From Anaerolineaceae bacterium (lineage in GTDB: Bacteria > Chloroflexota > Anaerolineae > Anaerolineales > Anaerolineaceae), in the NCBI GenBank assembly GCA_002702705.1, contig PABH01000005.1, positions 1 to 32,077 on the forward strand: a DNA stretch of 32,077 nt, read 5' to 3'. A program made the translations under genes and the position numbers. The notes under the pieces were generated by a model, which searched no databases, was not told the DNA's origin, and worked only from the letters and a program-made list of their open reading frames with translations. This document shows positions 7,502 to 12,823 of this stretch, piece by piece (positions within the stretch are counted from its first letter, which is position 1; each line of letters begins with the position of its first letter).

Positions 7502-8176
7502 CTACAGCATCTCCACAAAAATCAAGTTGCTCAACTCCGGGCCGATTGCATAAGATTGATTCTTTTCACCTACCAAAAGTTGTAAGGTTTGGTCGAAAGG
7601 GTTCCGGCTGCGCAGTTTCAACCGTGCTCCTGGGCAGATACCCTGTGCGCTCAGGTGGCGCAGCAGTTCGGATTTGCTGACCTGCACCCGTCGGATAATC
7701 GCTTCAGCCTGTTCATCTAACTCGGCCAGCGGAATGAAATTGGTGGTAGGCAGGTTTAAATCACGGTCGGGAATGGGGTCACCGTGTGGGTCAAATTTTG
7801 GATCATCCATGAGTTTTGCGATTTGATTTTCAAATTTTTCAGAGATGACATGTTCCAATTCATCTGCTTCAGTATGGACATCCTCCCATTGATAATTAAG
7901 TATGTTTACCAAAAACAACTCCAACAGCCGGTGGCGGCGTAAAAGTCGCAGGGCCAGGCGTTTTCCGGCTTCGGTCAGATTGACACCCTGGTGTTTTTGG
8001 TAATCCACAAGGGCTGGTTCCTGGTTTGCCAGTTTAATGAGCATACTGGTGATGGAAGGAGGTCGGACGTTTAAAAAATCAGCCAAAGCCATTGTGTTGG
8101 TTGTATCCTGATCGAGTGTGAGGGTGTAAATCGCTTTTAAGTAATCACCTTCGGACTTGGATAAATTAAGATCCAT
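7502..8176 (-). CDS. DtxR/MntR-family metal-dependent repressor with C-terminal FeoA domain
   Basis: The 224-residue protein has a winged helix at about 1-65 (MALADFLNVRPPSITSMLIKLA), a dimerisation domain to about 140 ending DPHGDPIP, and an SH3-like FeoA domain at about 150-222. Metal ligands can be aligned: D11 at the Met10 position of DtxR, H82, H101, D105 at the Cys102 position, E108 and H109 in LEHV. Aspartate at the first site resembles MntR, but the gene sits at the end of the feoB operon, so iron or manganese sensing both remain possible. It follows the FeoB permease gene by 55 nt that hold a 13-bp hairpin. It would act as a cytoplasmic repressor that binds DNA when metal is plentiful; the palindrome at 11547-11564 is a candidate target. 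Confidence 0.9.
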   Translation of the reverse strand: MDLNLSKSEGDYLKAIYTLTLDQDTTNTMALADFLNVRPPSITSMLIKLANQEPALVDYQKHQGVNLTEAGKRLALRLLRRHRLLELFLVNILNYQWEDVHTEADELEHVISEKFENQIAKLMDDPKFDPHGDPIPDRDLNLPTTNFIPLAELDEQAEAIIRRVQVSKSELLRHLSAQGICPGARLKLRSRNPFDQTLQLLVGEKNQSYAIGPELSNLIFVEML

Positions 8177-8231: not shown

Positions 8232-9635
8232 TTAAACCCAACCGGCTAAACGAGCAATGGTTGCTGTTAAGAAGGTTACGATAAATGCTGTTCCAAGTGT
8301 GATCACCACACTAAGGGCAGCCCATTTTTTGCTTTTGGTTTCCTTATAGATCGTCATGATGGTCGTAGCACAAGGATTATGCAGCAGTGAAAACAACATC
8401 AAGTTAACAGCGGTTAACATGGTCCAACCGTGCCCATCGACCAACAAGGTATGCAGTTGGCTGTAAGAAGGCGGATCGGTCATCATACCTACACCCATAT
8501 AAACCATCATCATGGTGGGTACCACAATTTCATTGGCTGGAATTGCAATGATGTATGCTAACAAGATGACACCATCCAGACCAATTAAAAAGCCAAGTGG
8601 GTCCAAAAAATTGGCAATAAGCTGAGCCAGACTGACGCCCTGAATATTGATATTCCCTAAAATCCAGATCGCGGCACCAGCCGGTGCGGCGGTTAAAATG
8701 GCACGCCATAAAACAAAAATGGTGCGATCAATGATGGAGGTATATAAAATACGGCCAATACTGGGGCGGCGGTAAGGCGGTAACTCGAGTGTAAAAGCTG
8801 ATGCCTCTCCTTTTAAGACCGTACGGGATAGGATCCAAGACATGAGCATCGTAAAAAATACACCGATCAACACCACACCCACCACAGTTCCTGCTGCTAC
8901 AAAGGAAGAAAAGACGGGGGGGAATGAGGCGGCTACAAACACAGTTGCCAGCATAATCAAGGTGGGGAAACGCCCATTACAAGGAACAAAATTGTTGGTT
9001 AAAATAGCGATCAAACGTTCACGAGGGGAGTCAATCACCCTTGTGGCAACTACACCGGCGGCATTACAGCCAAATCCCATTGCCATTGTGAGGGCTTGTT
9101 TTCCATGCGCTCCCGCTTTTTTGAACATCCAATCCAAATTAAAAGCCACACGAGGTAAATATCCCAGATCTTCCAAAATGGTGAAGACCGGGAAAAAGAT
9201 TGCCATGGGTGGCAGCATGACGCTGATAACCCAAGCCAGTCCGCGGTAAACCCCATGCCAGATAAAACCTGTGATCCACCAGGGGATACCAATACTCGTA
9301 AAGAGATTTGCAGCTTGTTCTTCAATCCAGAATAAACCAGTTGCTAACATTTGGGATGGCACATTCGCACCAACAATAGTGATCCAAAAAACAGCGGCTA
9401 AAATAAGCAGCATGATGGGTAATCCAAAGATCGGTGATGTCACCAGGCGGTCAATACGTTGGTCCAGGTCCCATTTCTTTTTACTGCCCTTATTTACTGC
9501 ACGATCCACAATCCGCTGCGCTTCCGTATACATGGATTGAACAATTTCATCTCGAAAACCGCTGCCCAATTGAGGACGCAGGCTTTCGGCCATAGCCAGC
9601 ACATCTTGTGGTTGAAGTTGTTTGGTTTCTGTCAT
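8232..9635 (-). CDS. feoB: FeoB permease half (Fe2+ transporter membrane domain)
   Basis: This is the membrane part of the ferrous iron transporter FeoB as a separate 467-residue protein. After a soluble 65-residue lead it has about 8-10 hydrophobic segments from residue 68. The two Gate (nucleoside-recognition) repeats carry the conserved cysteine motifs GFGCNAAG (C190) and NNFVPCNGR (C219), followed by the FeoB_C region and a final helix (VVITLGTAFIVTFLTATIARL). The GTPase domain is absent and is made by the gene just upstream. An AAAGGAG ribosome site lies in the 11-nt gap, so the split is a genuine gene boundary and not a simple frameshift. The two products are expected to assemble in the cytoplasmic membrane. 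Confidence 0.93.
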   Translation of the reverse strand: MTETKQLQPQDVLAMAESLRPQLGSGFRDEIVQSMYTEAQRIVDRAVNKGSKKKWDLDQRIDRLVTSPIFGLPIMLLILAAVFWITIVGANVPSQMLATGLFWIEEQAANLFTSIGIPWWITGFIWHGVYRGLAWVISVMLPPMAIFFPVFTILEDLGYLPRVAFNLDWMFKKAGAHGKQALTMAMGFGCNAAGVVATRVIDSPRERLIAILTNNFVPCNGRFPTLIMLATVFVAASFPPVFSSFVAAGTVVGVVLIGVFFTMLMSWILSRTVLKGEASAFTLELPPYRRPSIGRILYTSIIDRTIFVLWRAILTAAPAGAAIWILGNINIQGVSLAQLIANFLDPLGFLIGLDGVILLAYIIAIPANEIVVPTMMMVYMGVGMMTDPPSYSQLHTLLVDGHGWTMLTAVNLMLFSLLHNPCATTIMTIYKETKSKKWAALSVVITLGTAFIVTFLTATIARLAGWV

Positions 9636-9646
9636 GGCTGCTCCTT

Positions 9647-10471
9647 TTATTGGCGTCCTTCGACGGCCATTTTCCTGCTAAATTGAACGTCGGCTCGGCG
9701 TTGGCTGGCAACCAACTCGGAAATTTCTCCGCTGGCAATAGCAGATTGTACGCGAGCATCACCATCCAATAAACGGATTGCTAACCAGCGTGCATTTGGC
9801 ACGCCTGGGTAAAGCTGTTCGATTTGTTCTGCCAGCGTGGTGATAGAGCGTTGATATTCCGGGCTGCCCTGCACACGGATCGGTTGGGTTTTTACTTCCC
9901 CTTCGATCACTTCTGCGACGGTGCTTAATAACATTTGGATACCCTCACCAGTGCGAGCAACAATTGGAATTGATGGAACGCCAAGGTCACGGGAGAGCGA
10001 ACGGGTATCTACTTCAATCCCTTTGCGACGAGCTTCATCCATCAGATTCACCGCTACCACAGCTTTATCGGTGATCTCTAAGACTTGAATGACGAGGTTT
10101 AGGTTTCGTTCCAATGCGGTGGCATCGGTCACCACGATGGTGCAGTCCGGTTGGCCGAACAGAATAAAATCGCGGGCGACCTCTTCATCCTGTGAAGCAG
10201 ATAATAAAGAGTATGTGCCGGGGAGATCAACCAATTTATATTTTACATTTTGAAATTCATACCCACCTTCGGCACGGGTCACTGTTTTTCCCGGCCAATT
10301 GCCAGTATGTTGTTTTAACCCTGTTAAAGCATTAAACAGGGTGGATTTTCCCGTATTGGGATTGCCCGCCAGGGCAATGATGCGATCAAAATTATCTACT
10401 TTTAAACCCATTTGGGCTAATTGAGCGGTCATGGGGCATCCTTCGCATCCACTTGCAGCATGTTGTACCAT
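9647..10471 (-). CDS. feoB: FeoB GTPase half (N-terminal G domain)
   Basis: The 274-residue protein is the cytosolic G domain of ferrous iron transporter FeoB. GNPNTGKS (36-43, G1 phosphate loop), DLPG (82-85, G3) and NLMD (142-145, G4) are intact, with a helical spacer after about residue 200. It ends before any membrane segment. The N terminus carries GCEGCP (8-13), a CxxC pair that could bind metal or an Fe-S cluster. AAAGGAA precedes the ATG with good spacing. It begins 15 nt after the membrane-anchored DtxR-like gene and is 11 nt from the permease half, so all are cotranscribed. GTP binding and hydrolysis are known to gate Fe2+ import in FeoB; here the coupling must occur between two polypeptides. 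Confidence 0.94.
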   Translation of the reverse strand: MVQHAASGCEGCPMTAQLAQMGLKVDNFDRIIALAGNPNTGKSTLFNALTGLKQHTGNWPGKTVTRAEGGYEFQNVKYKLVDLPGTYSLLSASQDEEVARDFILFGQPDCTIVVTDATALERNLNLVIQVLEITDKAVVAVNLMDEARRKGIEVDTRSLSRDLGVPSIPIVARTGEGIQMLLSTVAEVIEGEVKTQPIRVQGSPEYQRSITTLAEQIEQLYPGVPNARWLAIRLLDGDARVQSAIASGEISELVASQRRADVQFSRKMAVEGRQ

Positions 10472-10486
10472 GATAAATTCCTTTCT

Positions 10487-11512
10487 TTAAGCCTGCGGCA
10501 ATGGTTTAACCCAGATGTCGTCAGCTTGATCTTTTCTTAATGCGATTAAGGTGCCACGCACACGATAGGCGCGTGGATCTCCAAACGCGTTTTCGAGTTC
10601 GGCGTAAATTGTTGTGCCGGGGGTTAAACCCAAGTCCAAAAATCTGCGCCGGGTAAAACCCTGGCAGCGTTCATCCAACTGTACGATCTCAGCTGGTTGT
10701 GTCCCTTTTAAGGCGGTTAAGGGAATTGCATCCCGTAAGGCCTGATCCGTCTCAGAAAGTTCCTGGAGAAAAACGTTGGCTGCCACAGCAGGTGCCAGGG
10801 TAAATTCGTTTTCACCATCTGTTAAAACAATACGTTGATTGTTCTTTTCTAAAATGCGGATCGTTTGTCCCAGTTTTAAACCAGTTGCTAAAATCTGAGC
10901 AAAAGCCAGTGGGGGTTCATCTTCCAAATGAATGATCTTACCAGGCGTATTTTCTTCCCAGTGATTTAGGTTGGTTCCTTTTTCGTGTGGACGGAATATA
11001 CCTGCCGCATTCGGAATTGGGTCTCCGTGTGGGTCAGCCAAAGGGTGCCCTAAAGCCGCATCCAATTCTTCAATTTGAGTTGAACTCATGCCATGTTCGC
11101 GGCGGTGCGCGACCGAATGTACTTTATTTAACGGCAGCCGGGCTTCATCGGCCAGATACCGTTCCCACAAACGATGAGCACGTACGATTTGTAAGGCTAA
11201 CTTTTCACCGTTTTCAGTGAGAATGATTTGACTTTGTTCGTGTTGGATTAAACCCTGTGATTCCATTTGATCCAAAAGAGAATAAATTCGTTTGGCTGAG
11301 ATCTCCAAAGCACCACGTAAGGCATCTTGATGAACATAATGGCCTTGCTGTTCCTGGTCAAAGATGTATTTTAGAGCATCTTCCAGGGCTTCCCGTTCAA
11401 CGGATTTTTGATAATGCTGCCAGCGTGATAATATTCCATATCGCGGTAAAAAAAACACGGCTACGATGAAAACAACCAGTAAAATTAATAAGATCCAAAA
11501 TGATCCTTCCAT
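10487..11512 (-). CDS. Membrane-anchored DtxR-like regulator fused to two FeoA-like domains
   Basis: This 341-residue protein opens the iron operon. Residues 5-23 are a single hydrophobic helix (FWILLILLVVFIVAVFFLP) followed by basic residues, so the bulk should face the cytoplasm. Next come a DtxR-type winged helix (about 40-105, SAKRIYSLLDQMESQGLI) and a dimerisation domain with recognisable metal ligands D45, H113, H132, H136, E139 and H140, ending DPHGDPIP at 160-167. Two SH3-like FeoA modules follow: about 185-252, and 263-337 with the clearer FeoA pattern (GFTRRRFLDLGLTPGT). FeoA normally works with FeoB, so this could both sense metal and contact the transporter, or repress as a tethered transcription factor. 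Whether it still binds DNA is unknown. The promoter upstream has an overlapping palindrome. Confidence 0.85.
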   Translation of the reverse strand: MEGSFWILLILLVVFIVAVFFLPRYGILSRWQHYQKSVEREALEDALKYIFDQEQQGHYVHQDALRGALEISAKRIYSLLDQMESQGLIQHEQSQIILTENGEKLALQIVRAHRLWERYLADEARLPLNKVHSVAHRREHGMSSTQIEELDAALGHPLADPHGDPIPNAAGIFRPHEKGTNLNHWEENTPGKIIHLEDEPPLAFAQILATGLKLGQTIRILEKNNQRIVLTDGENEFTLAPAVAANVFLQELSETDQALRDAIPLTALKGTQPAEIVQLDERCQGFTRRRFLDLGLTPGTTIYAELENAFGDPRAYRVRGTLIALRKDQADDIWVKPLPQA

Positions 11513-11546: not shown

Positions 11547-11564
11547 ATTTAGACATGTCTAAAT
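11547..11564. promoter_or_regulatory. Perfect 18-bp palindrome, candidate DtxR/MntR-type operator
   Basis: ATTTAGACATGTCTAAAT is fully self-complementary. It overlaps the edge of the minus-strand -10 box and would cover the transcription start of the iron operon, 35 nt upstream of the first gene. TTAG...CTAA half sites are typical of DtxR-superfamily metalloregulators. Which of the two local regulators binds is not shown by the sequence. Confidence 0.75.
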
Positions 11565-11590
11565 TATAATAGATTTTTGTAATTTTGCAA
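11563..11590 (-). promoter_or_regulatory. Promoter of the iron operon
   Basis: On the minus strand TTGCAA (11585-11590) and a perfect TATAAT (11563-11568) are separated by 16 nt. The 11547-11564 palindrome overlaps and follows the -10 box, a classic repression geometry. Confidence 0.7.
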
Positions 11591-11753: not shown

Positions 11754-12347
11754 TTAATTGGTTGGTATTCCTGTTTCCAGTGGCAATTTCAACTGACGAG
11801 TTAGGTTTACCAGGTTTTTTAGCAGTTCTTCCGTTAAATTAATCGCAAACTGGTCGGTTAGGTTATTTTCGGCATCAAATACCTTTTTTGGATAATTGCT
11901 AACCAAAACTTCTGGTCGATTAATGGTAATCATATTAAGATGGCTGGCAATCTGTCTTAAGTGATTTTGTGCGCGGGCTGTGCCAAACCGTCCACCCACG
12001 CCTATGATTGCAAGTGGTTTGCCGTCCATTGGTTTGCTTTTATCAGCATTGGCACGAGATGCCCAATCCAGGGCGTTTTTTAACACACCTGGAATGGAAT
12101 AATTATATTCTGGAGTGGCAATCAGGAATGCATCTGCCCGATATAAAGCTGAGCGAAAGGTCTCCACTTCTTTTGGGAACCCAATCTTTTCAATATCTTG
12201 GTTATACATTGGTATGGGCGTCAGATCAAGTATTTCATAACTTGTTTCCGGGGGTAATAAATGAACCGCTGTATTTAATAAACTACGGTTGTAGCTGTAT
12301 TCTCTTAAACTGCCGGCGAATGCGGCGATATGGATGGTGTTTTGCAT
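11754..12347 (-). CDS. NADPH-dependent FMN reductase (flavodoxin-like)
   Basis: This is a cytoplasmic flavoprotein of about 197 residues in the NADPH-dependent FMN reductase/chromate-quinone reductase family. It shows the FMN phosphate-binding GSLREYSYNRSL motif near the start and PEYNYSIPGVLKNALDW, the family signature over the flavin ring, then a GVGGRFGTARAQ loop. Members reduce flavins, quinones, azo compounds or metals with NAD(P)H; the substrate cannot be told here. ATG 12347 is chosen because GGAGA lies 6 nt upstream; an in-frame ATG at 12359 overlaps the stop of the MarR gene (TAATG), so coupled initiation there is possible. The MarR gene directly upstream probably controls it, as in quinone- or electrophile-sensing pairs. 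Confidence 0.9.
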   Translation of the reverse strand: MQNTIHIAAFAGSLREYSYNRSLLNTAVHLLPPETSYEILDLTPIPMYNQDIEKIGFPKEVETFRSALYRADAFLIATPEYNYSIPGVLKNALDWASRANADKSKPMDGKPLAIIGVGGRFGTARAQNHLRQIASHLNMITINRPEVLVSNYPKKVFDAENNLTDQFAINLTEELLKNLVNLTRQLKLPLETGIPTN

Positions 12348-12358
12348 TATATTCTCCA

Positions 12359-12811
12359 TTAATTGTTTATGCTTTTACCCAATTTGCGGAGTAAATCTCC
12401 CAATGTTTTTTGTTCTTCATTTGAGAGTGCACTAAAAATTTTGACCATATTTTTTGTGTGTTCTGGAAAAACAGATTCAATCAGCTGTTTACCAGTATCC
12501 GTAAGATTGATAATGATCATTCTACGATCATTTGTATCTCGTTCACGGCGCACCAGGCCCCTTTTTTCAAGATTGTCAATTACGGTTGTCATATTGCTGT
12601 TGCTTTTTAATATTTTTGAACCGAGTTCATTCTGGCAAAGGGGACCTAAGTGATACAGGGCTTCCATGGTTCCGAATTGACTTATGGTTAACTCTTTCAT
12701 AGAAGAACCATTTAACAGGCAAGCTTGCACAGAATCCATAGCCCGGGAAAGTTTGATATAGGTGTTCAACGCTTGAACTTCTTCGGGTTTTCCTTTATAG
12801 TGGGTTGGCAT
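12359..12811 (-). CDS. MarR-family transcriptional regulator
   Basis: The 150-residue protein has the MarR winged helix: LTISQFGTMEALYHLGPLCQNELGSKILKSNSNMTTVIDNLEKRGLV spans the helix-turn-helix, followed by the wing sequence RRERDTNDRRMIIINLTDTG. ATG 12811 is preferred because GGAGAG ends 5 nt upstream; the frame also has a TTG at 12823. It is cotranscribed with the FMN reductase gene. An inverted repeat just below a near-perfect promoter suggests autorepression released by a small molecule or oxidant. One cysteine is seen in the N-terminal helix (VQACLLN) and another in GPLCQNE, so thiol-based sensing is possible but unproven. Confidence 0.92.
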   Translation of the reverse strand: MPTHYKGKPEEVQALNTYIKLSRAMDSVQACLLNGSSMKELTISQFGTMEALYHLGPLCQNELGSKILKSNSNMTTVIDNLEKRGLVRRERDTNDRRMIIINLTDTGKQLIESVFPEHTKNMVKIFSALSNEEQKTLGDLLRKLGKSINN

Positions 12812-12823
12812 AATTCTCTCCAA

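Follow-up and report, generated by a model that had tools for sequence, protein, structure and literature searches.

How does a DtxR-type metalloregulator work when it is apparently tethered to the membrane, joined to two FeoA-type domains and encoded at the head of a feoB operon? This question is raised by a gene at positions 10487-11512 (minus strand) of a 32,077-nucleotide stretch of Anaerolineaceae bacterium DNA (contig PABH01000005.1; the whole stretch is hereafter referred to as the window), and it touches two open questions, the regulation of FeoB and the role of FeoA. We refer to the tethered DtxR-FeoA-FeoA protein as T and to a soluble DtxR-FeoA protein encoded in the same operon (7502-8176, minus strand) as S. 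A sequence-only reading of the locus had proposed that T is a direct sensor between transporter and promoter. The analysis below retains the anchored metal-sensing chain tied to FeoB and argues against the reading of the promoter. We lean towards the view that T is a membrane-anchored metal sensor whose target is the importer rather than DNA, with S as the reader of the operator.

Domain architecture of T and organization of its operon

T starts with ATG and has 341 residues. Pfam searches placed Fe_dep_repr_C at residues 99-168 (82.6 bits against a cut-off of 27) and FeoA at residues 263-337, with a whole-protein FeoA score of 74.8 bits over two stretches; in a profile search of the genome the two stretches scored 58 and 23 bits (cut-off 23). 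The best NCBIfam model gave 93.7 bits, below its cut-off of 350. An AF2 model built from 41 family members (mean pLDDT 94.8, pTM 0.86) consists of a helix at residues 2-21, a helix at residues 27-55 that continues into the winged helix, a dimer domain and two FeoA/SH3 folds.

On the minus strand, the chain thus comprises a single predicted membrane helix (residues 2-21, 11450-11509; AF2 secondary structure and family hydropathy); a winged helix (about residues 40-98, 11219-11395; family alignment) that carries the metal ligand D45 and has unconserved DNA-contact positions; the Fe_dep_repr_C metal-binding and dimerisation domain (11009-11218; Pfam and alignment) with H113, E117, H132, E139 and H140; a first FeoA/SH3-type domain, FeoA-1 (about residues 179-252, 10757-10978, borders approximate; profile search, AF2 and superposition), which contains the family-specific motif HxEDEP (residues 195-200, 10913-10930); and a second FeoA domain, FeoA-2 (residues 263-338, 10499-10726; Pfam and superposition). 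Residues 42-252 superpose on the manganese-bound structure 5zr6 (Z 20.8, rmsd 2.1 over 206 residues), residues 40-176 on Deinococcus DR2539, 8pvz (Z 21.2, rmsd 1.5 over 136), and FeoA-2 on Bacteroides fragilis FeoA, 7r7b (VIA-align Z 14.2, rmsd 1.5 over 74). Pfam and AF2 thus confirm that a helix, a winged helix, a DtxR metal/dimer domain and two FeoA-type folds lie on one chain, as the sequence-only reading had it.

Downstream of T on the minus strand follow the FeoB G-protein half (9647-10471; PF02421, 203.3 bits), the FeoB membrane half (8232-9635; PF07670 and PF07664) and S (Pfam; conserved recognition helix), which is the likely operator reader; the intergenic gaps are 15, 11 and 55 bases. 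Gene order and Pfam also agree with the earlier description of T as the head of a split-feoB operon without a separate feoA. Beside the operon, on the same strand, lie genes for an FMN reductase and a MarR-type regulator (11754-12823). The genome has a second, ordinary system (L036; G000:C26:93000-106000) with a stand-alone FeoA, a 693-residue FeoB and a divergent soluble DtxR-FeoA.

A predicted membrane-tethered family linked to FeoB

A scan of named genomes gave 210 relatives, of which the best 80 were kept; together with stretches from further relatives, and after removal of seven duplicates, they made a set of 102 distinct ORFs, selected through similarity to the window's own T. One of its rows (L037) is a fusion to NRAMP, which was kept in the alignment counts and removed from the entropy test on published contacts. 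By record title, the relatives come from eight phyla (Chloroflexota, Gemmatimonadota, Planctomycetota, Acidobacteriota, Bacteroidota, Ignavibacteriota, Calditrichota and Methylomirabilota), with the proviso that nearly all are metagenome-assembled genomes, in which misbinning may blur individual phylum labels. Inside the window's phylum the distribution is patchy: 21 of 400 sampled genomes matched at E <= 1e-50, and five of these matches (E 1e-51 to 1e-54) resemble shorter, untethered relatives. Among viral contigs, one stretch fitted a peptide pattern, and no relative was encoded. Both PF04023 (FeoA) and Fe_dep_repr_C matched all 41 T proteins scanned out of the 102.

We called an N-terminal hydrophobic helix when the Kyte-Doolittle mean over 19 residues was at least 1.6. 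Such a helix is present in 96 of the 102 members. Among the remaining six, two narrowly miss the threshold, one is truncated at a contig end, and in three the ORF as called has no such helix. In 77 of the 96, the flank that follows the helix is more positively charged than the one that precedes it, a pattern that suggests a cytosolic main part. Four loci (L038, L039, L040 and L049) encode DtxR-like proteins of 312-337 residues with no clear N-terminal membrane helix, L040 being cut by a contig end; they align to T over about 78-340 (L038-L040) or 61-235 (L049), and L038, L039 and L049 adjoin a FeoB that has a short G domain. This arrangement may resemble that of PgMntR with FeoB2.

The linkage to FeoB is nearly complete. 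Of the 96 loci that extend far enough, 94 have a feoB start within 600 bases downstream of T; the exceptions are the NRAMP fusion L037 and L102, whose sequence continues for about 0.8 kb downstream. FeoB is split in many, not all, of the loci. With one phmmer query, a small FeoA ORF was found in a single locus of the 102 (L133), which has a second feoB system. By coordinates, the T-FeoB operon of L063 and L287 (G071) lies close behind an ABC operon encoding a binding protein, an ATPase and two ABC-3 permeases, an arrangement that hints at manganese or zinc.

The FeoB proteins linked to T share a feature of their own. We compared G halves scoring at least 250 bits to that of the window, all from T loci. 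An N-terminal arm bearing CxxC before the P-loop is present in 93 of 96 T-linked G halves (in the window, C9 and C12; 10436-10447, minus strand). Among 27 FeoB loci unlinked to T, none of the 26 readable N termini has CxxC after the presumed ATG; the script flagged a CxxC upstream of the presumed ATG in L245 and L247, and L251, the second FeoB of the window's own genome, gave no row. In L133 and L142, which have two FeoB systems each, CxxC occurs only in the T-linked FeoB. The arm is a possible metal or redox site.

Conserved metal sites and an NRAMP-fused sister branch

The family alignment confirmed that the metal ligands of T align with those of DtxR, and they are nearly invariant: D45 is kept in 100 of 102 members, H113, E117, H132 and H140 in all 102, and E139 in 100. 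Position 136, which corresponds to C102 in the primary metal site of DtxR, varies (E in 36, H in 34, Q in 15, D in 12 and K in 2 of the 102). The HxEDEP motif of FeoA-1 is equally well kept (H195 101, E197 102, D198 102, E199 101 and P200 101 of 102). It aligns with the SH3 residues around E170 of DtxR, a ligand of the ancillary metal; the title of structure 1c0w mentions a metal-binding SH-like domain.

In a related branch, the same module is joined to a different importer. Four genomes (G033, G691, G537 and G623; loci L037, L213, L214 and L215) encode the helix, the DtxR core, two FeoA stretches and NRAMP in one frame of 760-766 residues; L037, the one fusion scanned, scored 428 bits with Pfam Nramp. 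A fragment from G572 has the sensor module and NRAMP in separate frames. In a quick tree the fusions form one clade beside T (SH-aLRT 87 for T, 99 for the fusions and 99 for T plus fusions against S), and we therefore count them as one event, not four. When a whole fusion was used as the query, 119 of 400 genomes matched at E <= 1e-60 with stand-alone NRAMP, the listed matches covering the NRAMP part only. The search was therefore repeated with the N-terminal part alone, which matched 136 of 400 genomes at E <= 1e-30, T and fusions combined. The N termini of NRAMP proteins are cytosolic, which fits a cytosolic main part of T.

All four fusions keep E44, D45, H113, E117, H132, E139 and H140 as well as HxEDEP; position 136 is M, M, T and M. 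Each has lost 8-10 of 15 listed FeoA-2 residues. R288, R289, R290, D293, E305, R319 and R326 are lost in all four, and G299, D312, P313 and Q329 are kept in all four. This combination of retained ligands and lost FeoA-2 residues suggests that the DtxR-type metal core is able to work with a second kind of transporter and that the residues lost are those that serve FeoB. The branch is a natural experiment in which the metal-sensing part can be told apart from the part likely to contact FeoB.

These observations bear on the alternative that T is a constitutive FeoA-type scaffold, which assembles or holds FeoB at the membrane with a DtxR core that is structural and senses nothing. T does occupy the place of the missing FeoA, and FeoB is split in many, though not all, of the loci. 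We nevertheless regard this explanation as unlikely: the ligands and HxEDEP are near invariant across eight phyla, and the NRAMP branch has held on to its ligands even with most of the listed FeoA-2 residues gone.

Divergence of the DNA-contact surface in T

The sequence-only reading had called for a check on DNA-contact residues across orthologues. Even at a permissive E of 1, PF01325, the Pfam model for the DNA-binding domain of DtxR, did not match the winged helix of the window's T; at E <= 0.001 the model matched one of the 41 T proteins scanned (of 102) as against 48 of the 48 S proteins scanned (of 65). For the contacts themselves we used those listed for IdeR in the consulted part of PMC8464063: Thr7, Arg27, Ala28, Arg29, Gln36, Ser37, Pro39, Thr40, Ser42, Gln43, Arg47, Arg50 and Arg60. 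A preliminary contact list had given a somewhat larger contrast than this published one. The sets were 66 non-redundant T proteins (of 101, L037 removed) and 42 non-redundant S proteins (of 65).

In T, the mean entropy was 2.71 bits at the 13 contact positions versus 1.93 at the remaining positions of the winged helix, and among 5000 random sets of positions 30 were equally variable; the corresponding values in S were 1.77 versus 1.53, with 1146 of 5000 random sets. At the four base-contacting positions, the entropy was 2.91 versus 2.03 in T (214 of 5000 random sets) and 1.45 versus 1.58 in S. We also compared pairs of proteins, which are mutually dependent, at matched identity of the dimer domain. 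Among T pairs with 0.7-0.8 identity there, contact identity was 0.25 as against 0.51 elsewhere and was the lower of the two in 260 of 263 pairs, whereas S pairs in the same range had 0.59 against 0.61, with the contacts lower in 71 of 151. Among S pairs at 0.5-0.6, contacts had 0.34 against 0.47 for the rest and were lower in 322 of 387, so that the contrast between T and S is clear only among the closer pairs. Judged from these two ranges, the contacts of T drift faster than their surroundings even between close relatives, and those of S only between distant ones.

The outcome of the check, variable contacts together with the near absence of PF01325 matches, speaks against DNA reading by T. 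Some caution is due. The mean charge of the winged helix is -2.2 in T and +2.1 in S, and that of DtxR itself is -2. The recognition helix of the window's T has K74 and R75, so this one protein may still bind DNA. Specificity in the DtxR type is largely indirect readout, and IdeR Q43A still binds normally, according to the consulted part of PMC8464063; divergence of the contacts is thus, by itself, insufficient proof of lost DNA binding.

S as the simplest candidate reader of the operator

An operator-like palindrome, TTTAGACATGTCTAAA, was found by motif search at 11548-11563, about 35 bases upstream of the T start codon. It is the sole mismatch-free match to TTTAGACNNGTCTAAA in the genome; with up to two mismatches the genome has 11 sites compared with 65 for the reversed control, so the motif is unenriched genome-wide. 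A promoter-like TTGCAA-16-TATAAT (11563-11590, minus strand; consensus match only) abuts the palindrome. Such consensus matches number 9 in the region versus 7.9 in shuffles; on this consensus match, a box abutting TATAAT would be in a usual position for a repressor.

We then related the box, defined as TTTAG-N6-CTAAA with at most one mismatch in ten, to the order of T and S. Because a script assigned the start codons and operon heads, the counts are approximate; four loci short of upstream sequence (two with S directly preceding T and two with T first) were excluded. Where S directly precedes T, the box lies before S in 17 of 23 loci and at none of 25 S-T junctions. Of the 15 loci that have S downstream, 12 carry it before T, as do 25 of the 43 T-first loci; it was absent before T in all nine loci with S further upstream and in all seven with a divergent S. 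Control windows from the same loci, leaders included, had the box in 42 of 2020 cases (2.1%).

In some loci, both the palindrome and the recognition helix of S depart from the usual form. Four of the seven divergent-S loci, from closely related Acidobacteria, have the palindrome TTTTGA-N4-TCAAAA, and their S helices read APGTATTMVKAL versus the usual PASVTGM type; L131 and L138 have a TTTAA..TTAAA palindrome and likewise unusual S helices. These palindromes were chosen as the best partial matches to the usual box and so were not found independently of it. There are misfits in both directions: L102, L128, L129 and L145 have an ordinary S helix and no box, and L139 and L149 have a less usual S helix and keep the box. 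The T helices, for their part, vary widely under one recurring box. Since the box recurs while the T helix varies, and since it precedes S when S is first, the simplest reading of these patterns is that S rather than T reads the operator.

The same patterns weigh on the possibility that T is a tethered repressor, which, held at the membrane, would bind the operator together with metal and so link transporter to promoter. The complete DtxR fold seen by AF2 and superposition, the conserved metal/dimer domain and the palindrome just upstream of T are what one would expect of such a protein. Its unconserved DNA contacts, the PF01325 match in one of 41 proteins and an operator that recurs over varying T helices and moves to S when S comes first make it improbable. 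This is the part of the original transporter-to-promoter proposal that found no support.

T might instead control S, with the shared dimer fold drawing S to the membrane or forming DNA-blind heterodimers. The two genes occur near each other in many loci and the dimer domain is common to both proteins. However, W116, R118 and Y119 in the dimer domain of T (99, 99 and 100 of 102) differ from the usual residues of S, in which W occurs in 8 and Y in 13 of 65 and R at position 118 is outside the five commonest residues; S may be placed upstream, downstream or divergently; and the four NRAMP-fusion loci, which span 7-11 kb, showed no S nearby. We consider such control quite improbable. That proteolysis frees the DtxR part of T as a repressor, as in the permease-DtxR fusion reported to be cleaved in cells (PMC5599777, consulted in part), is highly improbable in view of the same unconserved contacts and of the continuous helix 27-55, which in the AF2 model starts close to the membrane helix and passes into the winged helix with no linker.

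A proposed role for T at the importer

We return to T as an anchored metal sensor of the importer, paired with S at the operator. Gene order, the missing separate feoA, the match of FeoA-2 to a solved FeoA fold (7r7b) and the FeoA-2 losses in the NRAMP branch make the FeoA part of T the likely contact to FeoB, and it is on these same points that the surviving part of the sequence-only proposal rests. In the mechanism we envisage, the DtxR core and FeoA-1 would bind Fe2+ or Mn2+ on the cytosolic side, and FeoA-2 would replace the missing FeoA and contact the FeoB G half. Metal binding would alter the presentation of FeoA-2 and thereby adjust the GTPase state of FeoB and import, while the soluble DtxR of the same operon, S, would read the operator and handle transcription. 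FeoA stabilises GTP-bound FeoB in B. fragilis, according to the consulted part of PMC8980893; if metal were to shift FeoA-2, the G domain could hence be slowed or released.

If this is true, T is a protein-level feedback valve, in which the metal pocket that otherwise represses genes gates transport directly and is paired with an operator-reading soluble DtxR. By joining a readable metal site and a FeoA domain at the membrane, the family makes direct metal feedback on an importer a testable idea. We put forward, as a tentative generalization with close to an even chance of being right, that a DtxR-type metalloregulator left DNA and became the metal-sensing subunit of importers, in one branch anchored at FeoB via FeoA-2 and in another fused to NRAMP. 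T-type proteins are likely to be annotated, by their best domain matches, as transcriptional regulators, perhaps wrongly.

Comparison with known systems

Among the matches listed in our literature searches, no title or abstract opening described an anchored DtxR-FeoA-FeoA partner of FeoB or a DtxR-FeoA-NRAMP fusion. The sequence-only reading knew of no accepted mechanism for an anchored DtxR protein; this overlooks YtgCR of Chlamydia, in which a permease is fused to a DtxR-type repressor that is released by cleavage. Fusions of this kind are reported in 11 phyla (PMC5599777, consulted in part). As in T-type modules, a DtxR-type domain is joined there to a membrane metal transporter. According to the same part of that source, YtgR follows an ABC permease at the C-terminal end, undergoes cleavage and binds its operator, whereas T has an N-terminal anchor, two FeoA domains and divergent DNA contacts. 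T is also not fused to an ABC permease: it is separate from FeoB, and the related branch is fused to NRAMP. A search of long-frame ABC-3 permeases for a YtgR-like control yielded none; the nine loci inspected (L282-L290, from the window's phylum) encode ABC-3 permeases whose C-terminal tails resemble winged helices and, as judged by eye, have no DtxR metal domain.

A similar architecture is that of PgMntR from Porphyromonas gingivalis, in which, according to the examined part of PMC4805248, a DtxR core is likewise followed by two FeoA domains and tied to metal uptake. In that account PgMntR binds promoter DNA and its last FeoA domain has positive surface charge, and the word "transmembrane" is absent from the PgMntR text examined; T, in contrast, is predicted to have a membrane helix and lacks a conserved DNA surface. 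The manganese- or iron-dependent repressors 5zr6, DR2539, IdeR and DtxR, of which the first two superpose on T, share conserved ligands with it; unlike T, they are soluble DNA-binding repressors. On the transporter side, FeoA-2 has the FeoA fold and adjoins FeoB, as do FeoA and FeoAB in the consulted parts of PMC8980893 and PMC8749426, the latter of which also describes FeoA-FeoB fusions and proteins with two FeoA-like domains. FeoA proteins are small and either stand-alone in the cytosol or fused to FeoB, whereas T is a 341-residue chain in which the FeoA fold is combined with a predicted membrane helix, the metal core of a DtxR protein and one further FeoA-type domain.
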